DNA of 64,000 nt from Siphonodentalium dalli (taxonomy: Eukaryota > Mollusca > Scaphopoda > Gadilida > Siphonodentaliidae), in the NCBI GenBank assembly GCA_032622095.1, contig CP136067.1:49763899-49827898 (forward strand), written 5' to 3'. The notes beneath the pieces were generated by a model. The model was not told the origin of the DNA and ran no database searches. It saw nothing but the letters and a program-made list of their open reading frames with translations. Positions within the stretch are counted from its first letter, which is position 1. Every line of letters starts with the position of its first letter. Positions 2,947-48,501 of this stretch are shown here, in pieces. The position numbers and the translations under genes are program-made.

Positions 2947-5900
2947 GTATAAATTGTTTTTCACCTTTATTTGTTTTCTTTCTTTGTTTTCTTCAATTAC
3001 TCCAAAATTTCTCATTCATTTCTTGGTTTCTTTGTCACAATTTTAAGCTCTGTGATGAATTAATCGTGACTGTCTTCCTATGACAAAATAGTGAAGATAT
3101 TAAGCGATTGCGGAGTAGCATTACAGATGACATGAGACCTTGAAGCCAGTATTACTGCACTTGTTTCTACCTAGTGCAGCCTATTCAATGTTAAAAATTT
3201 TGTTAGGGAAGTTTTCTCGTTTGGGGAAACATTAAAAGATGTTTATGTGACTAATAGATTTGTCTACCATTTCCAGTAGGAGTAAGTTTGTGCCATAGAG
3301 GCTTGTAATTTGGGGGAAATATTTCTGATGAGTATGAGAATAACGTAATAGAGAAGTCATCTTCTGTTCATAAAGCAAGAGTTTCTGTGTATAGGGAAAT
3401 TTAGGGTCAGAATTTGGGGGGAAAATTTACTATCTTCCATATAAACCTTGAAATAGTGTGTCTGTCATTTGCAGAATGAGGTCCCCAGAGGGTGAATTTA
3501 GTGATGCTATCCCGCATAGTGGGCTAGCATCACCAAACTCGTGCTCTGGGGACCTCATTCTGCTCAGGTCACTAAATTCACACACTGGGGACCTCATTCT
3601 GCAAATGACAGACACACATTTCAAGGCTTGATAGGGAATTAATAAAATATCCCTGCAATAACCACTTTATCTATTTCGTGTTTTATTTACCTTCCTTTCA
3701 GGCTGTTGAGGGCACATATATTGACAAGAAATGTCCATTCACTGGTAACGTGAGCATCCGAGGACGAATCCTCACTGGAGTTGTCATGAAGCTCAAAATG
3801 ACGAGGACAATAGTGATCCGGAGAGACTACCTTCATTTCGTGAAGAAATACAGTCGATTTGAGAAGAGACACAAAAACATGTCTGTGCATCTGAGTCCTG
3901 CATTCAGGTATTGATGCTACCTCTAGTACACTGCCACTTTAGTTTCCAAGATTTGGGGTGGAAAATAATTAACTAGGGCTGCAACGATTCATCATTAATT
4001 CAATGTATCACGATACACTTTCAAACGATATACGTATCGTGTCATGTGTATCGTGATACAGGAAATAAAGTAATGTCTGAAGATGGGCTAGTGTAAAAAA
4101 TCAAAACCTACAATTATCTCTCAAGTTTATATGTATACTATGTATATTTGACTCATCTAGCCAACAATTAAACTTCATTTTACTTTAAAATGAACTCTAC
4201 TCCAGTTATAAACTTGTTGTTTCTGATAATTCAGGCGGTATTTATTTGGAAACACTAATGTTGTGTATTGTGATACGTATCGTATCGTTGATCATGTGTC
4301 GTGATTCGTATCATATCGTGACCAAGTGTATTGTTGCAGCTCTAATATTAATCTCTTCATTGCTTATGATATCGAGTGCTGGGCCGATGACGTTATGGCC
4401 ATTTTCCAGTTGAAAAATATAACGTGATTGTCACGAAAACCATGAAACTGACTCTGTTGAAAGGCTATTATCATTCACAATCATGGAACATCGTACACTG
4501 TTTGAAACTTCGAGAGACAGTTGTTTCGATGCACACATCTCTGAGTTTCAGTTATGAATAATGGCCAACTGCTAGTGTGCTGAAGTAGGTCCGTGCTCAG
4601 TACTGACGTATAGCACACAGCATGACATTTTACATCCATACTCAGTACTGACTTATAGCAGCCAAGAGGTTAATGGAATTGCATGTACTCACATGTGGCC
4701 TAATAAGTGATTGGTGGGGATTTAGGCTAAAATTAATAATATTGATTGCAATTTCACACTTGTCTCAATGCCAAATAATTGTGATCCTTGGGAATTTTCT
4801 CCAAAATTATTAATAAGGCCTAAAAAAAATATACGTTTGTTTCCGCTAACCCGACCGACCCTATTTTAAACCGCCGACTCTAAACTTTTTATTTTGAGAT
4901 TTTTTTTTTAAATATCTAAATCTCTATTATATTGGGAAGAAAACCAACATTGATATTTTTGTTGTTGGTAATTAAAACAAATTAGGCATAATTCCATTGT
5001 AATTTGTAATTATTATTAGCTCAACTTACTTGTAAGTTTGAGCTATTGCCATGGTTTGGCGTCCGTCGTCCGTGTGTGCGTGTGTCCGTGTGTCCGTGTG
5101 TCCGTCAACAATTTCCTTTGGCGCGGGCTACAGGTTGTACCTTTGGTCTGATCTTCGTGAAATTTGTCATGAATGTTGACATTGACATGTAGATGGGAAC
5201 GAGTCATTTTTGGGTCATTCGGCCAAAAAACATGGCCGCTGGCAGCCATCTTGGATTTCAAGATTCAATCCATTGGCGCGGCCTACAGGTCGTACTGTTC
5301 ATCTGATCATCATGAAATTTGTCATTGATGTTAATAATGACATGTAGATGGGAACGAGTGATTTTGGGGTCGTTCGGCCAAAAAACATGGCTGCCAGTAG
5401 CCATCTTGGATTTTACTCTTTGCATGACTAAATCCTTTGGCGCGGGCTACAGGTCGTTGTTTTGGTCGGAAGTTTATGAAATTTGTCATGGATGTTAACA
5501 CTGTCATGTAGATGGGAACGAGTGATTTTGGGGTCGTTCGGCCAAAAAACATGGCTGCCAGCAGCCATCTTGGATTTTACTCTTTGCATGACTAAATCCT
5601 TTGGCGCGGGCTACAGGTTGTACCTTTGGTCTAATATTTATGAAATTTGTCATGAATGTTGACATTGACATGTAGATGGGAACGAATCAATGTGGGGTCA
5701 TTCTGCCAAAAAACATGGCCGCTGGTGGCCATCTTAGATTTCAAAATTCAATCCATTGGCGCGGGCTACAGGTCGTACTGTTCGTCTGATCATCATGAAA
5801 TTTGTCATGGATGTTAATATTGACATGTAGATGGGAACGAGTCATTTTGGGGTTGTTCGGCCAATAAACATGGCCACCAGCAGCCATCTTGGATTTTACT

Positions 5901-8900
5901 CTTTGCATGACTAAATCCTTTGGCGCGGGCTACAGGTCGTAGCTTCGATCGGAACATCATGAAATTGGTCATGGATGTTAACAATGACATGTAGATGGGA
6001 ACGAGTGATTTTGGGGTCGTTCGGCCGAAAAACATGGCCGCCAGCAGCCATCTTGGATTTTACTCTTTGCATGACTAAATCCTTTGGCCCGGGCTACAGG
6101 TCGTACCTTTGGTCTGATCTTTATGAAATTTGTCATGAATGTTGACATTGACATGTAGATGGGAACGAGTCATTTTGGGGTCATTCTGCCAAAAAACATG
6201 GCCGCTGGCAGCCATCTTGGATTTCAAGATTCAATCCATTGGCGCGGGCTACAGGTCGTACTGTTCGTCTGATCATCATGAAATTTGTCATGGATGTTAA
6301 TATTGACATGTAGATGGGAACGAGTCATTTTGGGGTTGTTCGGCCAATAAACATGGCCACCAGCAGACATCTTGGATTTTACTCTTTGCATGACTAAATC
6401 CTTTGGCGCGGGCTACAGGTCGTAGCTTCGATCGGAACATCATGAAATTTGTCATGGATGTTAACAATGACATGTAGATGGGAACGAATGATTTTGGGGT
6501 CGTTCGGCCGAAAAACATGGCCGCCAGCAGCCATCTTGGATTTTACTCTTTGCATGACTAAATCCTTTGGCCCGGGCTACAGGTCGTACCTTTGGTCTGA
6601 TCTTTATGAAATTTGTCATGAATGTTGACATTGACATGTAGATGGGAACGAGTCATTTTTGGGTCATTCGGCCAAAAAACATGGCCGCTGGCAGCCATCT
6701 TGGATTTCAAGATTCAATCCATTGGCGCGGCCTACAGGTCGTACTGTTCATCTGATCATCATGAAATTTGTCATTGATGTTAATAATGACATGTAGATGG
6801 GAACGAGTGATTTTGGGGTCGTTCGGCCAAAAAACATGGCTGCCAGTAGCCATCTTGGATTTTACTCTTTGCATGACTAAATCCTTTGGCGCGGGCTACA
6901 GGTCGTTGTTTTGGTCGGAAGTTTATGAAATTTGTCATGGATGTTAACACTGTCATGTAGATGGGAACGAGTGATTTTGGGGTCGTTCGGCCAAAAAACA
7001 TGGCTGCCAGCAGCCATCTTGGATTTTACTCTTTGCATGACTAAATCCTTTGGCGCGGGCTACAGGTTGTACCTTTGGTCTAATATTTATGAAATTTGTC
7101 ATGAATGTTGACATTGACATGTAGATGGGAACGAATCAATGTGGGGTCATTCTGCCAAAAAACATGGCCGCTGGTGGCCATCTTAGATTTCAAAATTCAA
7201 TCCATTGGCGCGGGCTACAGGTCGTACTGTTCGTCTGATCATCATGAAATTTGTCATGGATGTTAATATTGACATGTAGATGGGAACGAGTCATTTTGGG
7301 GTTGTTCGGCCAATAAACATGGCCACCAGCAGCCATCTTGGATTTTACTCTTTGCATGACTAAATCCTTTGGCGCGGGCTACAGGTCGTAGCTTCGATTG
7401 GAACATCATGAAATTGGTCATGGATGTTAACAATGACATGTAGATGGGAACGAGTGATTTTGGGGTCGTTCGGCCGAAAAACATGGCCGCCAGCAGCCAT
7501 CTTGGATTTTACTCTTTGCATGACTAAATCCTTTGGCCCGGGCTACAGGTCGTACCTTTGGTCTGATCTTTATGAAATTTGTCATGAATGTTGACATTGA
7601 CATGTAGATGGGAACGAGTCATTTTGGGGTCATTCTGCCAAAAAACATGGCCGCTGGCAGCCATCTTGGATTTCAAGATTCAATCCATTGGCGCGGGCTA
7701 CAGGTCGTACTGTTCGTCTGATCATCATGAAATTTGTCATGGATGTTAATATTGACATGTAGATGGGAACGAGTCATTTTGGGGTTGTTCGGCCAATAAA
7801 CATGGCCACCAGCAGACATCTTGGATTTTACTCTTTGCATGACTAAATCCTTTGGCGCGGGCTACAGGTCGTAGCTTCGATCGGAACATCATGAAATTTG
7901 TCATGGATGTTAACAATGACATGTAGATGGGAACGAATGATTTTGGGGTCGTTCGGCCGAAAAACATGGCCGCCAGCAGCCATCTTGGATTTTACTCTTT
8001 GCATGACTAAATCCTTTGGCCCGGGCTACAGGTCGTACCTTTGGTCTGATCTTTATGAAATTTGTCATGAATGTTGACATTGACATGTAGATGGGAACGA
8101 GTCATTTTGGGGTCATTCGGCCAAAAAACATGGCCGCTGGCAGCCATCTTGGATTTCAAGATTCAATCCATTGGCGCAGGCTACAGGTCGTACTGTTCGT
8201 CTGATCATCATGAAATTTGTCATTGATGTTAATAATGACATGTAGATGGGAACGAGTGATTTTGGGGTCGTTCGGCCAAAAAACATGGCCGCCAGCAGCC
8301 ATCTTGGATTTTACTCTTTGCATGACTAAATCCTTTGGCGCGGGCTACAGGTCGTTGTGTTGGTCGGAAGTTTATGAAATTTGTCATGGATGTTAACACT
8401 GACATGTAGATGGGAACGAGTGATTTTGGAGTCGTTCGGCCAAAAAACATGGCCGCCATCTTGGATTTTACTCTTTGCATGACTAAATCCTTTGGCGCGG
8501 GCTATAGGTTGCCTTTGGTCTAATCTTTATAAAATTTGTCATGAACGTTGACATTGACATGTAGATGGGAACGAATCATTGTCGGGTCATTCGGCCAAAA
8601 AACATGGCTGCTGGCGGCCATCTTGGATTTCAAAATTCAATCCATTGGCGCGGGCTACAGGTCGTACTGTTCGTCTGATCATCATGAAATTTGTCATGAA
8701 TGATAACAATGACATGTAGATGGGATCGAGTCGTTATGGGGTCATTTGGTCAAAAAACATGGCCGCCAGCAGCCATCTTGGATTTTACTCTTTGCATGAC
8801 TAAATCCTTTGGTGCGGGCTACAGGTCGTAGCTTTGGTCAAATGGTCATGAAATTTGTCATTAATTATAACAATGACATGTAGATGGGAACGAGTCGTTT

Positions 8901-11900
8901 TGGGGTCATTCGGTCAAAAAACATTGCCACCAGCATTTTACTTTTTGCATGACTAAATCCTTTGGCGTGGGCTACAGGTCATACCTTTGGTCTGATATTT
9001 ATTAAATTTGTCATGAATGTTGACATTGACATGTAGATGGGAACGAATCATTGTGGGGTCATTCGGCCAAAAAACATGGCTGCCAGCGGCCATCTTGGAT
9101 TTTAAAATTCAATCCATTGGCGCGGTCTACAGGTCGTACTGTTCGTCTGATCATCATGAAATTTGTATGTCGTAGCTTTGGTCAGATCTTCATAAAATTT
9201 GTCATGGATGTTAACAATTATACGTAGATGGGAACGAGTTCTTTTGGGGTCAATTGGCCAAAAAAAATGGCCACCAGCAGCCATCTTGTATTTTACTCTT
9301 TGCATCACTAAATCCTTTGGCGCATGTTAGACATTTCAATTAGCACCTTTCCTATTCCTCCATTTACTGTCAACCATTAAATTATTCCCCTACCTAAGTT
9401 GAGCTACAGTGTCATTGACACTTTCATTAATTAATTTGTTGGAATTACCGGCAGACGAGTGTGCAAGACATACTTCCGGTATCGTTTCGCTATGAAATTG
9501 TCAAAGCGTATGAAATAACTGCGGTACGTTTTTTCATTCAAAATTTATTTGAACTTTGACAAAACATATCTATATCCGAGAATGGGTTAATCCATTAGTT
9601 ATTGATGACTTCACCACTAGAATATTAATACATTAACTATTTAACCACAGCTTAACATTTATTTCTACGAACATTTCATATTGGTACGTTGAATAGTGTC
9701 AAATAATGTCATTATAATGAACAAGTTTCCCATTTTCGTGGTACATATACATCGTTTTTATCATAGTCATAATGGGCTTGATTCAGTGCAGCTTTAAACC
9801 TTCAGGTCTAACAAATATAGGGTTTCCACTTATCTAATTGAATTCAATTCAATTTTATTGAATTTAGAACAAATATTTTTTTAAAAGCAAACTTTTTTTC
9901 AAAGTTATTAATTTTTTTTTAGAAATTAGAAGCTCGGTGACTCACACCAATACACGTCCTCCAAAAGCCTCAGTAATTCATCTTAGAAGATTCCTCCTAG
10001 CTACTTAACTCAGCTTGGGCTATTGAGTTTTTGACAAATGTTCACAAACAGTCAGTTTCATATTTTTACCACAAAATTTTCCTAAAAATTCCACCACATA
10101 CTATTATTCCGCAGTCCGCACGTATGTTTATTGGGCACTCATGAGTGGTGTCGTATGCGCCGCATGCACCAGAATACGTCTGCAACCGCCCCCCCCCCCC
10201 CCACAATAATAATATACAGTATATATAAGCCCACCCACCACCCATAGTGTCTTATGCGCCAGTGGCTCTGGGAATATGCGCCGCAACCGCCCACAATAAT
10301 CTCCTATATATTTTGAGAACTACGTAAATATATGTGTATATTTGTCCTCTATAGACTCGAAAACGGCTGCACCGATTGGGCTCAAACTTCCCATCTAAGG
10401 ATAAAAACCCACGGGAATGGTCGTCGCGGCGTTTTGGAGAAGCTCAGAGCACCCATTCTCCACTCTGTTACAAAAAATGGCACTGTGGGGTTAACGCTCC
10501 TTATATCTTCCATATTTGGGTTCGTTAACCTGTTAACGCTCTTTATTCCCTTCGGCTTTCGCATATGGCTTTTGTTTACGTTATCGCTCGAAATGGAACT
10601 CGCTTCTGTGTGATTCTTACGTACTTAGGGCTTCCTAGGAACGGGGGACATTTTCATCGGGTCAGTTTTTCCGCCCGAGGTGATCTTCACCTTGAAACGG
10701 GTACCCACAAATGATATATATGTGTGTGTCCTTTATAGACTCGAACCGATTGAGCTCAAACTTGCTACCTACAGGAAGTGTCATGGACGGGTTAAATTGT
10801 GACCCCGACTTGACCTTGAAAATGATCAATTCAGGGTCAAATTGAAAAACAAAATTTAAAAAGCCAGTAAATTAAAAAGGCACAATTAACTAATTAAATT
10901 TAAAAATTAATTACAAAAATTAATTACAAAAATAAAAATTGTCATGTTTCTGACGATTGCCGCCAGTGGCGGGCTAACCTGCTAGTAATATATAATGTAT
11001 CTTATGCGCCATAGAGTGTCTGCAACGGCCCACAATAATAATATATATAAGCGCCCGCCGACCATCCCATCCACCACACATAGTGTCTTATGCAGAATGC
11101 TAGTGACTTCGTCCCAAAATGGCGACCTCGTTCCGATTTTATGGGTGATCTCGTCCCAGTCGTCGGTGATGTCGTCCCAGTGTTGATAACAAAGTAAACA
11201 TACGTGTCACGTAAACTCTGGTCAACGTTTATACCCAAAACAGTGTAGTAAACAAGTCATGATATTAAATAATATATTTTATTTATGAAGTATCAGTTTA
11301 TACGATCTTAAATTAAAAACAACCACCGGGACGACATCACCGGGACGAGATCACCGACAAACGGCGACAAGTGGGACGAGGTCACCTCTTCGGGACAAAA
11401 ATTGGTGGGATGAGATCGCAGTGGGACGAAGTCACTGGTCACCCTTATGCATCTGCGGCCCCGGGAATATGCACCGCAACTGCCAACAATAATGTGGGGA
11501 GTTTGATGCAGAAGTGAAACCTGCGTTGCGGATATGTTATAAAACAGTATATATCTGACGATAAAACGTTATTGTCCCATTTTAGCTTTGTTATATCTCC
11601 TGCCAACAATAATGTGGGGAGTTTGACGCAGAAGTTAAACCTGCATTACGGAAATGTTATAAAACAGTTACCCCGATCTGTGCCAAATGCACTGCTTCCG
11701 GTTTGACCCCAGTTGTCGAAAGACCCTACGGGAAGTGAACGTTACAATAATTACAGTGTATATATATATCTGACTATAAAATGAAAGTTATTGTTCCATT
11801 TTAGCCTTGTTATATCTCCCTGAGATTGTGTTTTTGTTATATCTTTATGGGATAAGCAAATTAGCAATAATATGGCCTGTAATGTCTAAAATTTCCTTAA

Positions 11901-14900
11901 ATATGACACAGTGAATTGCATCCTGAAAAAATAAAAAGATAAAAGAAAAAAAAAAGATTTGCCTACCTACCTACCCAATTTTTTTTCAGTCCGTTAGCGG
12001 AAACAAACGTATAATTTTTTTAGGCCTAATCGTGCTGATTCTATTAGGCGCTGCACCTGTCAGTATTTAAGTTGTCTTGATCTAGTAAATGGAGAAAATG
12101 CTCTTACGTCTTCACAAATGGTAATCCGATAACAGTACCATGCAGCTGTAGCATATGCGTGTGATTTAACATATTTATACCAGTATTTATTAATACAGTT
12201 GGTTATTGGTGGGTGTTACTGCTTACCAGGATTACTAGTTACCAAGTCCTACTGTTTGTTAGCTGATGAATTAATCGTGACGGTCTTCCTATATGTTATG
12301 AGGACATAAAACGATTACTGATAGCAACCAGTAAATATTTGGCATCTGTGGAAATAAGCCTAAATATAGTTATTTTTTTAATCATTAAAGGTACTCAATC
12401 CGATTCGCTTGTTCCCATATCATCAGATTCCAACAACAACCTTTTTTGAAATGCCGTTTCAGTTCAGAATCGATTAATTGCCCAAAAATAATGATAACCA
12501 CAGTCAACTATAGCATAAAATTTCACAAAACCTGTTATTTATCAACATTTGTTCAACGAAATCTGGCTTGTTTGTCAAATATCTGATACACAAAAGCCAC
12601 TTGATTTTAGAGTTATCCATCTTAATCTGCAATTTGGTCCGAGACCGTCTTATCATAGACTTTTTACCAGGCCACTAAAAAAAATAGATGATGAAAAATA
12701 ATAGATTTCAAAAATCGATATCGGATCACTGAGCTTTGATGGACGATTTCCTGGACTCGAATGAAATATTTTTTACCCCCGAACCCAAAAAAAAAAGGCA
12801 TTTGCGAGCATTATAATTAATTCAGATTATGCATCTTTAAAAATTGCAATTGTTTGTGCCTTAAAATTGCCTTCATCATTTTCTAGGGAAAGATAACCTT
12901 CAATTATCACCGGCCCTGCTTTATTTTTCTAATTTCTGAGAACAATTATTTTTAATGGCCTAATTAATGGTGCTAGACATGGTGTCTGGCTCTTGAGTTG
13001 ATTCCCTTGGTCACTATCCCAAAATCCATATATGCCTTGCTACCATATAATATACAACACCAAGTGCAACATGCATGGTTTGTAGAGGTGCCACGACTAT
13101 TGATTTTGATAATCGGTCGTCAATAATCGAGTGCATTCAGTTCATTGAACACGGTGACAGTCGGCACATTTCAAAGACATATTGCCACCTTTCAAGTATA
13201 CTAAAATATACAACGATGTCGCAATGTGTTCAAATCTGCAGTGCGGCCAATTTGTTGAATATACAACGATCCGACGAGAAACCATGTCGCATCATCAAAT
13301 GAACTGCCGACTGTTTGCAACATATATCAGTAGTACTCATGTTATTGGAATCTCTTTGGTACGCGATCAAAGGATGTTAACACCTCGGTTGTAGATAGAA
13401 CTTTGTAAAATAAACACGGTATTCAATAATACCCGGCATCTTCTGACATCCGATATAAATAACACAGATTAATCGACGATGGAAATGGTAATCGATTATC
13501 GGCTTTATCAACGGTTCATCGATTATACGATTAATCGTGGCACCCCTAATGGTTTGTCTATCTCTTTCATAATTTGCTAGTAGCTCAGCTTATTAACACT
13601 TTAACTGAGCTATTTTATGGGTTTTCATAAATGATCGTTTATTCTATTTCTTGCATGCGGCCAACAACCACATTACTTTTATCAAAACTTCCGATACTTA
13701 GGGTGACTGTTAAGTCCAAAGAAAAAACAAAAAACATGGCTATTACAGCATGAATCATAAAAGAATCAGGACGAACAGGAACTTTTTATCCCGCATTGAT
13801 GTGGTACTAGTACCCAGACTGCTGAATATTTAATGGAATGGTTGTAACTGATGAATTAATCGTGACGGTCTTCCTAACTGTTATGAGGACATTGAAACGA
13901 TTACTGATAACAGCCACAGAATGCTATTTTTAGGGAAATAAGAAAATCAATTAATTTTGTTCATAAGTTATGTTTGCCCCTTCTTTCTACTTATGAACGA
14001 CATTAAGCGATCATAGAAAGAGATCGGCAGATATATATTGTTGATTTTAATTGGCTGATACTCATTACTGAGCAATCAATTGGTAATGCCATTGAACATG
14101 GATGTTGATTGTTTATTTTACTTCGCTACATGAACTATGACACCAATATATTATGCCAACACCTTGTGAAATTATGATTGATCTAATTGCTTGTTTTTCA
14201 AATTAGATAGAGCAATGGAGCATAATGACAGTTTTTGGCGCACCATGGATTATCATATCTCGTTGAAATTTGGTATGCTTGTTTGGCACCGGGAGGGCTT
14301 TCAAAAGAGGGTTCATTGACGTAGCCTTTGTCTAGAGCTGGGACGGTTATGGGTTTTTCGTGACCGGTTATGAACGGCAAAAAACCGCGATTAACCGGTT
14401 AACCGCATATTATAGGTATTATTATGGGTGTGTAAGCCCAGTATGCAGAACGGCGATGATTGTGATGCTCACTGACATGGTAAGTTTGAGAACGACTCCT
14501 GCCCATTATACAAAGAAGTTGTCACCCATGACACACATAATCACATACCGGTACTGTAAAAACATATTTTTCGTGTTCAGTGACAACGTAGACCTATGTG
14601 TTCCTACGTGTGGCCAAACACAAAGAACTGACCTCTTGGTTATGTAAACACACAGTGGGTATCATAATGGAGCAGAAGGGGGAACTTGTCAATTAACAAA
14701 AATGTCTTCCAAACTGCGTCAACTTTATTCACTCGAAACCAAAATATTCAAACACGTGCTTTTGTATACGTTTTTATACGTATACGTTTTAGCATTCGGC
14801 AAACCTCGTCAGATTCCATCACCGTTTGCCCCCAGAGGTCACAGGTCGAGGAGTTCAGAATGCCGTTTTAGTAGAAATACAACTGCCTTGTCAGTGCTGT

Positions 14901-17900
14901 TAAATAATTACACTCAATGGCTTTTGTTAAACATGCAATTAGTCGCCATGTATGTAGACAATGGATGACGAATAAAGCGCCGGGCTTATTGTTTTCCTAA
15001 TCAGTCCTAATCGAATTAAATCGGAACATTGATATAAACTATAGTCAGACTATAGATAACCCACATTGCCGCTTACATAATAACCAGGGCATTCCTGACT
15101 CCAAGCATACACTTTGGGAACAAGACGGCTGTCCTTTGATGTTTCGTTTTGACGTCGGCAGGCTGTGAAATGTAGCCTTCAATGAGCCGACACACCGCGT
15201 TTGATGTTGTTCCGTCAATCTCGGATTCATTTTAATTGACGGAGACAGATTAACCCTCTTATAGCCAGTTATAGCTGACCATCACAGTGATCATACACTA
15301 TAATAGTGATGTTACGGTTAACCGGCCACGGCAAATCCGTGACCGCTCACGGCCATAGTTGGTGGTTAACCGGTTAACCGCATAACCGTCCCAGCTCTAC
15401 CTTTGTCTACATGTTCGACTGAGTGATAGCTGGAATTTACATTGTATCCCCATCAACAGTCTAGTTGCCTTTTAAGAGTTGTCTCATGATGAGTTAATCG
15501 TGACGGTCTTCCTATACAAAACTGAGGATACTATACGATTGCTGAAGACAGTTTCTTTTGTCTTGTTAAATCTATGCATTTTATAATTCATAATTTCTTG
15601 TAAAGCGATTTCTATAGTAAATCATTCTCATGGTGTCAAGCCTGCCTACCCCCTCCCCCTTTAGGATATTGTTACCAATATATCGCTGATGTACAACATG
15701 AATATGGATGATGGAAAGTATTGTTTTTCACCGAGTTAATCCCCTTTCTTGACTTAGAGAGTCAACTTCCTATTCAAGATAACCATCTATTATCGGGGGA
15801 ATTGTGGTCGCGACCTTTTATTGAGATTATATTTAAGTTTGGTGTTATGATCCACTGGTCAGCATATTTCTAGAAGGTCTTCGAACTCTTTGCAATTTCA
15901 TAGAAGTTAGACCAGAAAACACAATTAATGTTTTTACATTATGATTAAGTAATGTAGATTTCAGTTATAATCAGTAAACAGGATGATAGAACTAAGAGGA
16001 GATTGGATCCTACAAGTTTCCAGAAAATAAAGAGCAATGATGACACAATTGTCTCGTTCGACTGAGTTCAATGATTACAAATCATCGGAATCTTCTGAGC
16101 TCTTTCTGTTGTTAACTCATTCACTGCTGAGTGGTTTCTCCCATTCAGGTCTCGCAGATTACACTGGATTGTTCTATTTATCATTTAATGGGATGTTCTG
16201 ATGTATACAAGCACACAGGCAGAGAAAAACCCAAGGGATGCCCATATCATGCTCAACATTTGTATAGTGGATTACATGCATCCGTCCGTTCATATATCTC
16301 AACCATGGGTTATCGGATCTCAATGTAAATTGGTTTGCAGGTTTGGCATCAGGAGGGCTTTCAAAAGAGGGTTTATTGACATTCATATTTTCCATTCAAT
16401 AGTCATTTAATATCACTCTTTGTTCTTCTGAAAATGTTGGATTTCCGCTAATCATGGGTTATCGGATCTCGATGAAATATGGTATGCATGTTTGGCTGGC
16501 ACCAGGACGTCTATCATTGACATAACATTTGTCTACCTGGTCGACTGAGTGATGGCTGAAATCTACATTGTATCCCCATCAACAGTATGGTTCCCTTTTA
16601 AGAGTTGTCATATGATGAGTTAATCGTGACGGTCTTCCTATACAAAACTGTGAGGATACTATACGATTGCTGAAGACAGTTTCTTTTGTCTTGTTAAAAC
16701 TATGCATTCTATAATTCATAATTCTTTGTAAATCAATTCCTATAGTAATTTAGTAAATCATTCTCATGGTGTCAAGCCTACCTACCCCGTCACCCTTTAG
16801 GATATTGTTATCAATATATTGCTGATGAACAATATGTTTATTCATGACGGAAAGTATTGTTTTTCACAGAGTTATTCCCCTTTCTTGATTTAGAAAGTCA
16901 ACCTCATATTAATTATAACCATCTATTTTCGTGGGAATTGTGGTCGGCGCCCTTTTGTTGAGATTATATTTAAGTTTGGTGTTATGATCCACAGGTCAGC
17001 ATATTTCTAGACGGTCTTCGAACACTTTGCAAATGCGTAGAACAGAAAAAACAATGTTTTTACATTATGATTAAGTAATGTAGATTTCAGTTATAATCAG
17101 TAAATAGGATGATAGAACTGAGAGGAGATTGAATTCTACAAATTTCCAGAAAAGAAAGAGCAATGATGACACAATTGTCTCGTTCGACTGAGTTCAATGA
17201 TTACAAATCATCGGAATCTTCTGAGCTCTTTCTGTTAACTCATTCACTGCTGAATGGTTTCTCCCATTCTGGTCTCGCAGATTACACTGGATTGTTCTAT
17301 TTATCATTTAATGGGATGTTCTGATGGATACAAGTACACAGGCAGAGAAAAACCCAAGGTGCCCATATCATGCTCAACATTTTTATAGTGGATTACATGC
17401 ATCCGTCCGTTCATATATCTCAACCGTGGGTTATCGGATCTCAATGTAAATTGGTTTGCAGGTTTGGCATCAGGAGGGCTTTCAAAAGAGGGTTTATTGA
17501 CATTCATATTTTCTGTTCAACAGAGTTATTTAATATCATTCTTTGTTCTTCTGAAAAGGTTGGATTTCCGCTAAATCATGGGTTATCGGATCTCAATTAA
17601 ATTTGGTATGCATGTTTGGCTGGCACCAGGACGTCTATCATTGACATAACATTTGTCTACCTGGTCGACTGAGTGATGGCTGAAATCTACATTGTACCCC
17701 CATCAACAGTCTGGTTCCCTTTTAAGAGTTGTCATATGATGAGTTAATCGTGACGGTCTTCCTATACAAAACTGTGAGGATACTATACGATTGCTGAAGA
17801 CAAGTTTCTTTTGTCTTGTTAAAACTATGCATTCTATAATTCATAATTCCTTGTAAAGCAATTCCTATAGTAATTTAGTAAATCATTCTCATGGTGTCAA

Positions 17901-20900
17901 GCCTACCTACCCCGTCACCCTTTAGGATATTGTTATCAATATATTGCTGATGTACAGCATGTTTATGGATGACGGAAAGTATTGTTTTTCAGAGTTATTC
18001 CCCTTTCTTGATTAGAAAGTCAACCTCATATTAATTATAACCATCTATTTTCGTGGGAATTGTGGTCGGCGCCCTTTTGTTGAGATTATATTTAAGTTTG
18101 GTGTTATGATCCACAGGTCAGCCTATTTCTAGACGGTCTTCGAACTCTTTGCAAATGCATAGAACAGAAAAAAACAATTAATGTTTTTACATTATGATTA
18201 AGTACGGTAATGTAGATTTCAGTTATAATACAGTAAATAGGATGATGGAACTAAGAGGAGATTGGATTCTACATATTTCCAGAAAAAAAAAGAGCAATGA
18301 TGAACCAATTATCTCGTTAACCTGACTTCAATGATAACAAATCAAAATCTTCTGAGCTCTTTCTGTTGTTAACTCATGAATGGTTTCTCCCATTCAGGTT
18401 CTCACAGATTACACTGGATTGTTCTATTTATCATTTAATGGGATGTTCTCATGGATTGACTGTTTTTCATAATATTACACTTCATTTTCGACTTATTTTG
18501 ACTTAGAAAATTCTGTCTGACTTAATAGCTTTAACAAATATGAACCAATTTGAATAATTTTTTCTGTACAAGTTTTTTGTGACACCATATCGATATTATT
18601 AGTCCGAAGTTTTCTTTAAAGTTAAAAATCTTTTTTGTTGGGTTTACGGATAATGCGGGTTGAATTTGCCACGGTGGGGGTATGCTAGCACTCGAGTGCA
18701 CACCTCTTGTTATCAATATATTGCTGATGTACAACATGTTTATGGATGATGGAAAGTATTGTTTTTCAGAGTTATTCCCCTTTCTTGATTAGAAAGTCAA
18801 CCTCATATTAATTATAACTATCTATTTTCATTGGAATTGTTGTCGGCACCCTTTTGTTGAAATTATATTTAAGTTTGGTGTTATGATCCACAGGTCAGCT
18901 TATTTCTAGACTAGACGGTCTTCGAACTCTTTGCAAATGTAATGTTTTTACATTATGATTAAGGAATGTAGATTTCAGTTATAATACAGTAAATAGGATG
19001 ATAGAACTAAGAGGAGATTGGATCCTACAAATTTCCAGAAAAGAAAGAGCAATGATGACACAATTGTCTCGTTCGACTGAGTTCAATGATTACAAATCAT
19101 CGGAATCTTCTGAGCTCTTTCTGTTAACTCATTCATTGCTGAATGGTTTCTCCCATTCAGGTCTCGCAGATTACACTGGATTGTTCTATTTATCATTTAA
19201 TGGGATGTTCTGATGGATACAAGCACACAGGCAGAGAAAAACCCAATGGATGCCCATATCAATATGATATCATGCTCAACATTTTTATAGTTGATTACAT
19301 GCATCCGTTCGTTCATATATCTCAACCATGGGTTATCGGATCTCAATGTAAATTGGTTTGCAGGTTTGGCATCAGGAGGGCTTTCAAAAGAGGGTTTATT
19401 GACACTCATATTTTCCGTTCAATAGAGTTATTTAATATCACTCTTTGTTCTTCTGAAAATGTTGGATTTCCGCAAATCATGGGTTATCGGATCTCGATGA
19501 AATTTGGTATGCATGTTTGGCTGGCACCAGGACGTCTATCATTGACATAACATTTGTCTACCTGGTCGACTGAGTGATGGCTGAAATCTACATTGTATCC
19601 CCATCAACAGTCTGGTTCCCTTTTAAGAGTTGTCATATGATGAGTTAATCGTGACGGTCTTCCTATACAAAACTGTGAGGATACTATACGATTGCTGAAG
19701 ACAAGTTTCTTTTGTCTTGTTAAAACTATGCATTCTATAATTCATAATTCCTTGTAAAGCAATTCCTATAGTAATTTAGTAAATCATTCTCATGGTGTCA
19801 AGCCTACCTACCCCGTCACCCTTTAGGATATTGTTATCAATATATTGCTGATGTACAGCATGTTTATGGATGACGGAAAGTATTGTTTTTCACAGAGTTA
19901 TTCCCCTTTCTTGATTAGAAAGTCAACCTCATATTAATTATAACCATCTATTTTCGTGGGAATTGTGGTCGGCGCCCTTTTGTTGAGATTATATTTAAGT
20001 TTGGTGTTATGATCCACAGGTCAGCCTATTTCTAGACGGTCTTCGAACTCTTTGCAAATGCATAGAACAGAAAAAAACAATTAATGTTTTTACATTATGA
20101 TTAAGTACGGTAATGTAGATTTCAGTTATAATACAGTAAATAGGATGATGGAACTAAGAGGAGATTGGATTCTACAAATTTCCAGAAAAAAAAGAGCAAT
20201 GATGAACCAATTATCTCGTTAACCTGAGTTCAATGATAACAAATCAAAATCTTCTGAGCTCTTTCTGTTGTTAACTCATGAATGGTTTCTCCCATTCAGG
20301 TTCTCACAGATTACACTGGATTGTTCTATTTATCATTTAATGGGATGTTCTGATGGATACAAGCACACAGGCAGAGAAAAACCCAATGGATGCCCGTATC
20401 ATGCTCAACATTTTTATAGTTTATTACATGCATCCGTCCGTTCATATATCTCAACCATGGGTTATCGGATCTCAATGTAAATTGGTTTGCAGGTTTGGCA
20501 TCTGGAGGTCTTTCAAAAGAGGGTTTATTGACATTCATATTTTCCGTTCAATAGAGTTATTTAATATCACTCTTTGTTCTTCTGAAAATGTTGGATTTCC
20601 GCTAAATCATGGGTTATCAGATCTCGATGAAATATGGTATGCATGTTTGGCTGGCACCAGGACGTCTATCATTGACATAACATTTGTCTACATGGTCGAC
20701 TGAGTGATGGCTGAAATCTACATTGTATCCCCATCAACAGTATGGTTGCCTTTTAAGAGTTGTCATATGATGAGTTAATCGTGACGGTCTTCCTATACAA
20801 AACTGTGAGGATACTATACGATTGCCGAAGAGAGTTTCTTTTGTCTTGTTAAAACTATGCATTCTATAATTCATAATTCCTTGTAAAGCAATTCCTATAG

Positions 20901-23900
20901 TAATTTAGTATATCATTCTCATGGTGTCAAGCCTACCTACCCGTCACCCTTTAGGATATTGTTATCAATATATTGTTGATGTACAACATGTTTATGGATG
21001 AACTCTTTGCAAATGCATAGAACAGAAAATAACAATTAATGTTTGTACATTATGATTAAGTAATGTAGATTTCAGTTATAATACAGTAAATAGGATGATA
21101 GAGCTAAGAGGAGATTGAATTCTACAAATTTCCACACAAAAAAGAGCAATGATGACCCAATTATCTCGTTAACCTGAGTTCAATGATAACAAATCAAAAT
21201 CTTCTGAGCTCTTTCTGTTGTTAACTCATGAATGGTTTCTCCCATTCGGGTTCTCACAGATTACACTGGATTGTTCTATTTATCATTTAATGGGATGTTC
21301 TCATGGATACAAGCACACAGGCAGAGAAAAACCCCAATTGATGCCCATATATCATGCTCAAATCATGCTCAACATTTTTATAGTGGATACATGCGTCCGT
21401 CCGTTCATATATCTCAACCACGGGTTATCGGATCTCAATGTTGTTGGTTTGCAGGTTTGGCATCAGGAGGGCTTTCATAAGAGGGTTTATTGACATTCAT
21501 ATTTTCCGTTCAATAGAGTTATTTAATATCACTCTTTGTTCTTCTGAAAATGTTGGATTTCCGCTAAATCATGGGTTATCGGATCTCGATGAAATTTGGT
21601 ATGCATGTTTGGCTGGCACCAGGACGTCTATCATTGACATAACATTTGTCTACCTGGTCGACTGAGTGATGGCTGAAATCTACATTGTATCCCCATCAAC
21701 AGTATGGTTCCCTTTTAAGAGTTGTGACAGGGATTTTTCTGCCTATTTTGGGAATGGGTTCGGGTCCCTTCGAATTGGGAAAAATGTGTCTTTACAGACC
21801 AAAATTGGGAATTTTCCATGTTTTTGAAAAATTCAATTAATCACTGTTACACACATGTAAATAGTACTAATTCCGTAATTTTCGGGTGTATAACGCGACT
21901 GTACACGTGTTTTATATAAATCAGAAATTTATTTAGAGGTATCTTCCCTCTTTCATAAATGCGCTGACTGGTAGAGGGGAGGTAATTTGCATGTTAAGCT
22001 AATAGTTAGGTTGCTGCATGTACATTATACAATGCGGGCTCCCGATATCGCTGATTTATTACGGGTTTTCAGCCGCTTATCGATCGACTGAGTGTACAAA
22101 ACATCAGAATAATTTATAATTATTCAATAAACCTGATGGTAATATATACCTGCCTGCAATTGGGAATTTGGTGGTTAAAAATTGGGAATGAAGGAGCATT
22201 TTTCCCATTGGGAATGGGGCCGAATACCGGACCCTGAGGACACCTAAAAAAAATCCCTGTGTCACATGATGAGTTAATCGTGACGGTCTTCCTATACAAA
22301 ACTGTGAGGACACTATACGATTGCTGAAGACAGTTTCTTTTGTCTTGTTAAGTTTCTTTTGTCTTGTTAAAACTATGCATTCTATAATTCATAATTCTTT
22401 GTAAATCAATTCCTATAGTAATTTAGTAAATCATTCTCATGGTGTCAAGCCTACCTACCCCGTCACCCTTTAGGATATTGTTATCAATATATTGCTGATG
22501 AACAATATGTTTATGGATGACGGAAAGTATTGTTTTTCACAGAGTTATTCCCCTTTCTTGATTTAGAAAGTCAACCTCATATTAATTATAACCATCTATT
22601 TTCGTGGGAATTGTGGTCGGCGCCCTTTTGTTGAGATTATATTTAAGTTTGGTGTTATGATCCACAGGTCAGCATATTTCTAGACGGTCTTCGAACACTT
22701 TGCAAATGCATAGAACAGAAAAAACAATGTTTTTACATTATGATTAAGTAATGTAGATTTCAGTTGTAATCAGTAAATAGGATCATAGAACTGAGAGGAG
22801 ATTGAATTCTACAAATTTCCAGAAAAGAAAGAGCAATGATGACACAATTGTCTCGTTCGACTGAGTTCAATGATTACAAATCATCGGAATCTTCTGAGCT
22901 CTTTCTGTTGTTAACTCATGAATGGTTTCTCCCATTCGGGTTCTCACAGATTACACTGGATTGTTCTATTTATCCTTTAATGGGATGTTCTGATGGATAC
23001 ATGCACACAGGCAGAGAAAAACCCAAGGGATGCCCATATCATACTCAACATCTTTATAGTTGATTACATGCATCTGTCCGTTCATATATCTCAACCATGG
23101 GTTATCGGATCTCAATGTAAATTGGTTTGCAGGTTTGACATCAGGAGGGCTTTCAAAAGAGGGTTTATTGACATTCATATTTTCCGTTCAATAGAGTTAT
23201 TTAATATCACTCTTTGTTCTTCTGAAAATGTTGGATTTCCGCTAAATCATGGGTTATCGGATCTCGATGAAATTTGGTATGCATGTTTGGCTGGCACCAG
23301 GACGTCTTTCATTGACATAACATTTGTCTACCTGGTCGACTGAGTAATGGCTGAAATCTACATTGTATCCCCATCAACAGTATGGTTCCCTTTTAAGAGT
23401 TGTCATATGATGAGTTAATCGTGACGGTCTTCCTATACAAAACTGAGGATACTATACGATTGCTGAAGACAAGTTTCTTTTGTCTTGTTAAAACTATGCA
23501 TTCTGTAATTCATAATTCCTTGTAAAGCAATTCCTATAGCAATTTAGTATATCATTCTCATGGTGTAAAGCCTACCTACCCCGTCACCCTTTAGGATATT
23601 GTTATCAATATATTGCTGATGTACAACATGTTTATGGATGACGGAAAGTATTGTTTTTCTGAGTTATTCCCCTTTCTTGATTTAGAAAGTCAACCTCGTA
23701 TTAATTATAACCATGTGTTTTCGTGGGAATTGTGGTCGGCGACCTTTTATTGAGATTATATTTAAGTTTGGTTTTATGATCCACAGGTCAGCCTATTTCT
23801 AGACGGTCTTCGACCCTTTGCAAATGCATAGAACAGAAAAAAAACAATTAATGTTTTTACATTATGATTAAGTAATGTAGATTTCAGTTATAATACAGTA

Positions 23901-26900
23901 AATAGGATGATAGAACTAAGAGGAGATTGGATTCTACAAATTTCCAGAAAAAATGAGCAATGATGAACCAATTGTCTCGTTCGACTGAGTTCAATGATTA
24001 CAAATCATCGGAATCTTCTGAGCTCTTTCTGTTAACTCATTCACTGCTGAATGGTTTCTCCCATTCAGGTCTCACAGATTACACTGGATTGTTCTATTTA
24101 GGCCAAAGCGAAAAATAGGTGTGTTTCCACTCCCATCCATAAAAAAAACAGGGGGGGGGGGGTGGCTTTTCACTTTATTTATTTTTTTTCACTTTATTCT
24201 TTCGCGGGGAAATTTAAATATCATATTTGTGCTATCTTTCTAATAATTATGTCATTTATGAACTTATTGTGAAGGCTAACAATGTATGTACTGAATTTCA
24301 GTGTCTTGTATTTAATCTACATGTGCAAATTGTACATATGTTCATTAATATTCAATAAAACAACTAGTTTCAATATTTACAACAGTGTAGAATAACTTTC
24401 CACATAATTAGGCGTCAAGGCCTTTGGGGTGATTCTTTTCATAGACTTGAAAAAAGGTGTTGCAGTGGGGAACCTTTGTCATTTTGTTTCTGCCTTGCGC
24501 CATGTGTATGCATTTAAAAAACTTAAGTGCCAACACGCTGCTGGCACTTGTTTGGGACGACATGTTGACACTATTTCCCGGATGTTGGCAAAATTGTTTT
24601 AGATCTTCCGGTAAATATACACTCCGGCTTCCGTTCGGTAAATTACCGTAGGCCTATATCATCCGGTTGTTACAGTCCGTTCTTTTCAGACACCGTTGGA
24701 AGTTTTGGGACAGATGTATTCTTTGCGATTGCATTCGCGTAAATATTGTGTAGCATTATTTTGCCGGTATATTTGGGCATGTCGTTAGTTGACGTACATT
24801 AATAATGCGGTCATAAACTCATCACCCTAATGCCGCCATGGAGCTTCATTTTACAGTGTGTCTGAAAACCACGTGCGCGTTTGTTTTTGTTTATAATCTG
24901 TTGCTCTATCGGTCACAACACGGAATTTTATTGTCAGTGGGTCGATTTAATAACCAAATAAGGAGACAATTTTAGTATGCTTGTTTATGTGAGAGGTCTA
25001 TATATAACAATATAAATAGTGTAGTATTAATTCACGTGGAAATAGTAAATACATCGTATTTTATTTTTCGGGATTTGGAAAATAAATAAAGTGAGTTTCG
25101 TCGGGGGGGGTTTTGAGGTGGGGCGGGCGGGGGGAGTGGAAACATGCCTATTTTTCGCTTTGGCCTTATCATTTAATGGGATGTTCTGATGGATACAAGC
25201 ACACAGGCAGAGAAACACCCAATGGATGCCCATATCATGCACAACATTTTTATACCTTCATCCAAAAGATTGGAGGAAAACTGGATTACATCTGTCTGTC
25301 TGTCCGCTCATATATCCCAACCCAATGAAGTTTGGTATTCAGGAGGGCTTTCAAAAGAGGGTTCATTGACGTAGCGTTTGTCTACCTGTTTTCACTGAGT
25401 GGTGGTTGAAATCTACATTGTATCCCCATAAACAGTCTGGTTGCCTATGAAGAGTTGTCACATGATGACTCATTGATGAGTTAATCATGACAGTCTTCCT
25501 ATACAAAACTGTGAGGACACTATACGATTGCTGAAGACAGTTTCTTTTGTCTGGTTACAGGCCTTTAAATCCATCAAAATTTGCGAGAATCAATTAATAG
25601 CATTTATGTAGCTAATCAGCTGCTTTTACAAGAATCAAACTGAGAATCAAGAATCTGATTCTGATGAAGGGGTGGGGCTGCAGTTTGAAATCTTGCTAGA
25701 ACACTCTTATTCACCAGGACCTCTTCTGTACATCCCTAACCAATCGTAGACATGTGAAAATAGACCTTTCCCAGACAATATAGAGGGCTTTGGTTGCATA
25801 AATCTAATTGGTTAGCTCTAGATTTTTCAGGTCTCGTTTGAATTATACTGATAAAACACCCCATTGTAACGTACCGGTATACTAGAACAATATTTCATGT
25901 ATGTTGAGATTAGTAAATCAGCACCCTGCTTGATTGCGCTAATTTCTAAATTCTATTTAATCTTATAATCATCGGCTGTGGTTCTGTTTATTACGCATCT
26001 CATACAGTACTTACTTCACTGGCTTTATAACTGTTTAAATTCTGACAGTGGAAGATTTCGGATATAGTGACAGAGGCTGCTGGAAACTATAGCTAGACCT
26101 ACTGTACATCAAGTGTAGGCACAATCGGATACATACATGTATGTGGCTTGTTTACCTATGCATGCAAGTTCATTTCCCTGACAATGTTGTACAAATGTGT
26201 TTATATACATGAACATAAATTCATTTATCATGTACAATTTTAGTCCACCAAAATCGGGTTATATAATGCCGAAATGTGTTATAAAGCTACTACGAGATAA
26301 CTCGTAGTTGGCACCTGGGACGGAATTTACCTGTGGCCAATGCTGGTGCCAGCTACGAGTTATCTCGCAGGTAAATACATATTACGTTTTTGATGTCTTG
26401 GTGACGTAGAGTGTACCAGTGATTATATATAAATTCATTTACTGTGTCTTATACATATGTCTGATAAATTCCGTCTCAGTTGCAGACTACGAGTTATCTC
26501 ATAGTGGCCTTACGACTTATGTCTCCGCATCATGTAAACCGATATTGGTCGAACCGTCACTTATCCATACATAAAGTTTCAACTACTATCGGCAAAACAT
26601 GCAATCCCATGTTATTGTACGGAATGGAATTACCCATTGGTTTTCGGCAGTGAACGTGATAAGCCCGGTTAAAACTATGCAGTCTATTATGGTAAATCAT
26701 TATGTTCTGATGGATACAAGCCCACAGGCAGAGAAAAACCCAATGTACATGTATGCCCATTCATCACTCGATCTAACATATTCTACAAATTTGGCTGTTA
26801 GTTGAATATTTAGTTTTATCTGTTGAGTTATGGATTGTGACCTCATCTTTAGAGATTCTAAGTAATTCTGACTAATATTTGCGCTTCGACCGGTACTGTA

Positions 26901-47860: not shown

Positions 47861-48501
47861 CTAGCCGATGAGCCCGACGTTGTCCGGGCTATTCAAAAAC
47901 CAAATTTCAAGTCGATAGCTCCACCCGTTTCCGAGATCTGGTCTGCGCATGCGCGAAGCTGGCGTCGCACGGGCTCGGCGACCCGATAAAATTCGTATCC
48001 GGGGCAAGATACATTCACATACCAAATTTCAAGTCGATAGCTCCACCCGTTTCCGAGATATATATATTGCCCAATGTCATTTGCGGATACCTCGGCCGGT
48101 GATGAGTTTAACGCGACATCGGCCGGTTAAGAGTTAAACGCGATCACGTCACGATCTGTTGACGGCGTAATATATTTACGGAATGTTTTTCGATGAGCGA
48201 AGCATGGTCCTGCGTTCTTCTCGATAATTAAGGTAGAAACTTTAAACGTACACAGGCGTGTGATACATCATTGTAAAGATGAAGCGCCACAGATGCTAAC
48301 CGTGCAAATTATATGACTGGCAATTTATAATTCGCGCTATATCGAATCGATATCTGAAAATTAATAGACCCATGCCACCCCCCGGCCGAAAATACCCCCA
48401 CATACCAAGTTTCATCGAAATCGGCTCGGCCGTTTTCGAGTCCATCACGATCACACAGACAGACACACACACAAACAGATCTTCCAAAAATATATAATAG
48501 A
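47861..48501 (-). mobile_element. Helitron array unit H3
   Basis: Type I 5' end; 3' end CCCGGACAACGTCGGGC-TCATCGG-CTAG. Relative to H1 it lacks about 85 bp between ATCGAATCGAT and ATCTGAAAATTAATAG. Confidence 0.82.

Follow-up and report, generated by a model that had tools for sequence, protein, structure and literature searches.

The human box C/D small nucleolar RNA (snoRNA) SNORD35B sits in RPS11 and guides 28S C4506 (PMC6466398), and in chicken, intron 4 of RPS11 contains a snoRNA matched to U35A/B and snR73 (PMC2653536). One snoRNA per intron is the predominant arrangement in animals, and tandem multi-copy C/D snoRNAs with subfamilies are described from the SNORD115/116 and SNORD113/114 arrays (PMC11028025). 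Here we describe the RPS11 locus of the scaphopod Siphonodentalium dalli, in a 64,000-nucleotide stretch (the window) of contig CP136067.1, which is contig 7 of a 2.23-Gb assembly of nine contigs. Coordinates are window positions, and all features lie on the + strand unless stated. We think it quite likely that the RPS11 introns house two box C/D snoRNA families, multiplied by tandem duplication of a unit of about 1.12 kb, which guide 2'-O-methylation of ribosomal RNA (rRNA). The two families, RPS11 as a host and tandem arrays of snoRNAs have all been described before; the SNORD115/116 and SNORD113/114 arrays occupy repeated introns of non-coding hosts, unlike the RPS11 array (PMC11028025). 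Among the titles and abstract openings of open-licence literature, often limited to the best matches, we found no RPS11 snoRNA array of this kind and no split SNORD30 guide.

A first-pass annotation of this DNA had proposed eleven SNORD35-type copies on the host strand, eight of them intact, and our counts agree. The guide TCGTGACGGTCT, allowing at most two mismatches, has 17 matches in the window against a shuffle mean of 2.57 (largest 9): the eleven copies, five occurrences of a different repeat element (TCTAGACGGTCT) and one minus-strand match at 48439. Named by the start of the box C core (TGATGA, present in 11/11), the copies are 3053 (3044–3121, in the preceding intron), 12264 (12255–12328) and 13849 (13840–13914), which both lie outside the tandem array, 15487 (15478–15552), 16613 (16604–16680), 17737 (17728–17804), 19638 (19629–19705), 20768 (20759–20835), 22267 (22258–22334), 23408 (23399–23473) and 25474 (25465–25541). 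Box C core, guide, box D and terminal stem are all intact in eight. Three copies are damaged: 3053 has CGGA as its box D and a G>T change that is its one guide mismatch, in 20768 box D reads CCGA, and 25474 carries two changes in the guide. Box D is CTGA in nine of the eleven. Copies 12264 and 13849, although intact, have a C before the box C core where a purine is usual. Terminal stems are weakest in the three damaged copies (−2.9, −1.2 and −1.6 for 3053, 20768 and 25474, versus −3.8 to −8.8 in the others); the intact copies keep a stem even though its sequence differs among them. The stem beats the shuffled-flank mean in 8/8 intact SNORD35-type copies and in all nine window copies of the second family described below; the fraction of shuffled flanks giving an equally good stem is 0.005–0.095 for intact copies and 0.24–0.555 for the three damaged ones. 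The distance from box C to box D is 58–63 nt in window copies.

The eight intact guides form a 12-bp duplex (two of the pairs being G-U; −17.1 to −18.2 kcal/mol) with the large-subunit (LSU) target AGACCGTCGTGA, which has the same letters in L003, a eukaryotic LSU segment, as in the RF02543 consensus. As had been proposed, the guide addresses the C of GACC at the fifth base before box D', in other words the C4506-type LSU site; the equation of this C with human C4506 is presumably correct and draws on the literature. Duplex energies fall to −10.9 for 3053 and −15.4 for 25474. Guides on the D side of these copies gave nothing beyond chance against the divergent rRNAs of L012. L003 itself comes from a contig listed as viral in IMG/VR, so its LSU sequence reflects either contamination or a chimera.

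The SNORD35-type copies resemble SNORD35A/B (U35; yeast snR73; AtU35) in guiding to the LSU GACC site and in their RPS11 host, as in human and chicken. They differ in being eleven, with ten in one intron, in the two G-U pairs of the guide and in their covariance match: the SNORD35 model RF00211, which the annotation had offered as a check, is absent among 55 matches up to E = 5 in positions 1–30000. Their best model is instead sn3071 (RF01166), matched by eight of the eleven copies at 21.2 to 37.3 bits, under its cut-off of 40, and by none of 3053, 12264 and 13849. sn3071, a nematode RNA, shares GACGGUCUUCC with our copies. By eye, the AATCGT that follows box C could pair with the ACGATT that precedes box D, and sn3071 has UUCACG and CGUGAA similarly placed.

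The host was correctly named as RPS11. We describe it from three exons: an exon at 2818–2946 (peptide IEKAFQKQ...KTPRE), the middle exon at 3702–3907 (peptide starting AVEG and ending SPAF) and the last exon at 27768–27891, stop codon included (DVIPGDIV...SFSKF). Joined, they match the Pfam domains Ribosomal_S17_N and Ribosomal_S17 (RPS11/uS17) and, in the PDB, 40S ribosomal protein S11 chains with E down to 9.2e-77. The gene is single in the genome, with one match to the middle exon at E ≤ 0.001. The preceding intron (2947–3701) hosts one SNORD35-type copy, 3053, and the last intron (3908–27767; 23,860 bp, with GT at 3908 and AG ending at 27767) holds the other ten. The annotation had further called guide and host an ancient pair, which cannot be shown here; intronic snoRNA positions are unstable over deep time in a 44-genome study (PMC3511168).

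The last intron also holds nine copies of a second C/D family, SNORD30-like, usually about 550 nt after a SNORD35-type copy. The earlier description of a many-copy intronic SNORD35 array thus stands as to the multi-copy state but not as to content, because the repeat unit holds two snoRNA families; the annotation had missed the tandem unit, all nine members of the SNORD30-like family and a part-copy on another contig. Boxes C, D' and D are intact in 9/9 (ATGATGA and CTGA in every copy), and the terminal stem has 7 bp in eight and 4 bp in copy 23955. A C/D finder requiring boxes C and D, a terminal stem and a guide with 10 Watson-Crick pairs to rRNAs, or to an added LSU consensus stretch, was run over both strands of the window. 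It returned exactly these nine copies, and none in each of five + strand shuffles; it is blind to the SNORD35-type copies because their guides use G-U pairs.

Two guide forms occur on one backbone. Guide A (GUCUCGUUCG before box D') is carried by six copies, at 16029–16105, 17155–17231, 19044–19120, 22828–22904, 23952–24028 (copy 23955) and 27109–27187 (copy 27112, outside the array), and makes 10 perfect pairs with the small-subunit (SSU) site CGAACGAGAC, corresponding to human 18S 1383. Guide B (AUCUCGUUAA) is carried by three, at 18289–18362, 20191–20264 and 21141–21214, and makes 10 perfect pairs with the LSU site UUAACGAGAU, corresponding to human 28S A3804, where guide-A copies have 7 Watson-Crick pairs. 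Within the 10-bp duplex the guides differ at −2, −3 and −11, exactly the positions where the SSU and LSU targets differ. Of the 3240 ways in which guide A can change at three positions, one yields a perfect LSU guide; this figure is post hoc and concerns one chosen site, and the copies may trace to one event. The energy of guide A clearly favours the SSU site (−17.6 versus −9.7 at the LSU site). In addition, AUCGGAAU in the guide-A array copies can pair with SSU sequence directly 5' of the target (−10.0; −7.9 in copy 27112), and this accessory pairing is weaker in guide B (−2.0) and in the two SNORD30-like copies on contig 5 (−3.6); the comparison is suggestive of an accessory contact by guide-A copies. 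The contig 5 copies have an intermediate guide, with nine Watson-Crick pairs and one G-U at the LSU site and nearly equal energies for the two sites (−12.2 LSU, −12.3 SSU).

Like SNORD30 (U30; AtU30, RF01283), the SNORD30-like family has a UCUCGUU guide upstream of box D' in the RF01283 register, and in B copies RF01283 is the best model or nearly so (28.4–29.5 of 45 bits). The differences from SNORD30 are the host, RPS11 rather than SNHG1, and the presence of two guide forms, one perfectly paired over 10 positions with the SSU site and the other with the LSU site. Guide A has the same 10-nt guide, GUCUCGUUCG, as AtSnoR32/snoZ43 (RF00330), whose SnoR32 site, 18S A1330, is the human 1383 position, but the backbone differs and the model scores 19.3 of 43 bits. 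In Arabidopsis, U30 directs 25S A2322 and SnoR32 directs 18S A1330 (PMC8053127). For human SNORD30, one review lists both 28S-A3804 and 18S-'C1383' (PMC6466398), two papers list A3804 alone (PMC3511168, PMC8881200), and the table of PMC3511168 sets another snoRNA beside Am1383.

The two guide forms, with three base changes, two known sites and one backbone, make a clean test of how targets are divided among duplicated guides. In vertebrates the sequence of the LSU site is UGAACGAG, which would let a single guide fit both sites. A split would be needed here because the LSU site reads UUAACGAG, which one guide is unable to fit together with the SSU site. As the review cited above assigns both sites to human SNORD30, the boldest reading is that a dual-target SNORD30 was divided by tandem duplication, within one ribosomal-protein intron, into two specialized guides with a 10-bp perfect match each, and that three rRNA methylations in this genome depend mainly on the array. 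We regard this as a real possibility, somewhat short of an even chance; that duplicated guides drift to new targets is a stated expectation (PMC11028025). Alternatively, guide B could be the lineage's ordinary SNORD30 and guide A its ordinary SSU-1383 guide, two old and separate snoRNAs made alike by gene conversion in the array. The Arabidopsis division of the two sites between U30 and SnoR32 (PMC8053127) would fit such a history, as would the presence of guide B in RF01283 and of guide A in RF00330. Nevertheless, the backbone, stem and boxes are common to A and B copies over about 75 nt, the isolated copy 27112 bears guide A on this shared backbone, and two genome patterns, both demanding exact boxes, revealed no separate B-type gene, and we consider conversion of two old genes rather unlikely. 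The only match of one such pattern, on contig 4, was dropped as a B-type gene; it lies in a minisatellite and is not a snoRNA.

The SSU site CGAACGAGAC is present in 5/5 18S stretches examined (L010, L012, L013, L014 and L016), all of them eukaryotic rDNA in contigs filed as bacterial genomes, which could be due to contamination or chimeras. The LSU site UUAACGAGAU occurs in the RF02543 consensus and in two copies of a 28S-like fragment of about 110 nt from the animal's own genome; it is not in L012. In a guide scan of the divergent rRNAs of L012, the main guide of the SNORD35-type copies and guide A came out top at their expected sites, with 2/100 and 6/100 shuffles reaching them (4/100 for copy 27112). 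Guide B was not outstanding, 92/100 and 66/100 shuffles being as good; the LSU site of L012 has a different sequence. For the damaged guide of 3053, the hit lay elsewhere in the LSU (7/100 shuffles). The 28S-like fragment is followed by an inverted part-copy of itself, an arrangement found twice on contig 6 (C6:204034685 and C6:206610915).

SNORD35-type and SNORD30-like copies alternate in a tandem array at 15399–25560, with units of about 1.12 kb interrupted by deletions and insertions. Its repeat families (D6–D20) have steps mostly of 1119–1147 bp, with others of 756–962 bp and 1.5–3.8 kb. Outside the window, two DNA searches of the genome, which detect near copies only (one did not list 3053, 12264 and 13849), found only C5:208089863-208092146. 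This contig 5 locus has two SNORD35-type and two SNORD30-like copies and carries the array's right flank, and is therefore a segmental copy of the array's end. A genome-wide pattern of box C, guide and box D' gave 12 matches (reversed control 1), namely the nine SNORD30-like copies of the window, two on contig 5 and one on contig 9, the last with no later CTGA within the letters inspected. The pattern requires exact boxes, and other guides for these sites may therefore exist. For further SNORD35 genes, a genome pattern gave 45 matches (reversed control 9), of which nine are in the window and two on contig 5; among the other 34, the three inspected (C3:70483228, C8:132248330 and C5:26437125) have no CTGA in about 75 letters after the guide.

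The repeat element TCTAGACGGTCT at 17006, 18128, 20031, 22679 and 23798 is a second element of the unit; it has GACGGTCT in common with the SNORD35 guide, and no boxes were seen nearby. An inserted stretch at 24100–25166, whose 35-nt inverted ends are 94% complementary, splits a unit and looks like a non-autonomous DNA transposon. Another insertion, at about 21727–22259, lies just 5' of copy 22267, and close to its two ends are inverted repeats of 28 nt that match imperfectly (79%); the insertion end forms part of that copy's 5' flank. A splice-donor scan for exons within units found three sites at 8 of 9, but the real donors score just 5 and 6 and 78 array sites score at least 6, so that the scan is uninformative and small exons between units are possible.

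The array is young, and constraint within it appears modest. A test on all columns counts each gapped column and overstates significance within the array; there we relied on a substitution-only test. In the SNORD35-type copies (five of eight array copies), 0/28 critical columns vary versus 84/665 flank columns (p 0.025), and in guide A (four of six copies) the figures are 0/34 and 58/503 (p 0.018); with two alternative selections of rows, p was 0.004 and 0.002. In an alignment of 12264, 13849 and one array copy (without 3053, which is damaged), one of 28 box and guide columns varies versus 21 of the 43 remaining columns of the snoRNA. Shared dispersed repeats further off set aside, the alignable stretch between 12264 and 13849 is 72 nt long, and that between these two and the five array copies compared (of eight) is 28–71 nt around the snoRNA. 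Copy 27112 and the array units share the snoRNA of about 76 nt and a separate stretch of 40–44 nt about 400 nt upstream.

This narrow homology raises the question of whether the copies outside the array (3053, 12264, 13849 and 27112) are retroposed snoRNAs rather than remnants of older duplications, as would be suggested by the confinement of homology to the snoRNA itself in this region. However, no A-rich tail was seen by eye beside 12264 or 13849, and the changes in these two copies avoid boxes and guide, which suggests that they were at least kept functional. We judge retroposition unlikely.

Several results weigh against two functional families with specialized guides. The animal's own 18S and full 28S were not found in the genome, and the proposed targets consequently rest on other eukaryotes, Rfam and the own 28S-like fragment. 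In the window, every Rfam family falls short of its gathering score. The SNORD30 models RF00088 and RF01283 stay below theirs (RF01283 at most 29.5 of 45 bits), RF00088 being unlisted, though the listing omits weaker matches of one clan. The best model of guide-A copies is SNORD103/85, at 30.8 of 45 bits in most, not a SNORD30 model; for this reason the name SNORD30-like rests on the guides. Guide B favours the LSU site only slightly (−11.7 versus −9.0 at the SSU site), and the 18S 590 consensus draws gapped duplexes from guide B (−16.9), the contig 5 form (−13.7) and guide-A copy 23955 (−15.1). In windowed rankings the conservation of the snoRNAs is unexceptional for the young array: with A and B copies mixed, 75/690 and 481/690 windows were equally or more conserved, and in four further sets 48/676, 54/306, 77/511 and 41/201 were. 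Finally, a flank tree of ten units does not join the B copies; either reshuffling has separated guide type from flank, or the tree, in which one of seven inner branches is well supported, is too weak.

An earlier candidate target of guide B, Am590 as guided by SNORD62 (from the 18S sequence UUUAACGAGG), was dropped, given that papers on U30 name an LSU target (PMC8053127, PMC3511168) and that the LSU site makes 10 perfect pairs; guide B, and also the one A copy, still form the gapped duplexes with the 590 consensus given above.

Many of these results would also be expected of a satellite-like expansion, in which unequal crossing-over multiplied an intron stretch of about 1.1 kb that happened to hold two snoRNAs, with one or two copies of each working and the rest, guide B included, drifting. 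The interruptions of the units by inserted stretches and deletions, the damage to three of the eleven SNORD35-type copies, the modest conservation of the snoRNAs within the array, the disagreement of flank tree and guide type and the slight LSU preference of guide B all point in this direction. Such drift does not readily account for the retention of boxes C, D' and D in all nine SNORD30-like copies, or for the three duplex differences of guide B, all of which restore pairing to a known methylated LSU site (PMC8053127, PMC3511168). We hold satellite-like expansion to be a plausible but not a favoured account.

Returning to two functional families, we infer expression and processing of the copies, methylation of their targets and specialization of guides A and B after duplication from the sequence. 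Transcription of RPS11 would release both snoRNA families, and each snoRNA would guide fibrillarin to 2'-O-methylate rRNA: the SNORD35-type copies at the LSU C of GACC (human C4506), guide A at SSU CGAACGAGAC and guide B at LSU UUAACGAGAU. Because 17 intact snoRNAs sit in one intron, release would be expected to proceed by endonucleolytic cuts or trimming of the long intron, rather than by one splice per snoRNA. Two snoRNAs in one intron can also give sno-lncRNAs (PMC11028025).

Two minor features of the RPS11 introns lie apart from the snoRNAs. In the preceding intron, a palindrome at 3464–3609 matches the MIR831 microRNA model at 33.6 of 100 bits, probably through hairpin shape alone. In the last intron, 5114–9323 consists of sequence repeated in tandem at steps of 164 and 319 bp, which add up to a 483-bp super-unit.

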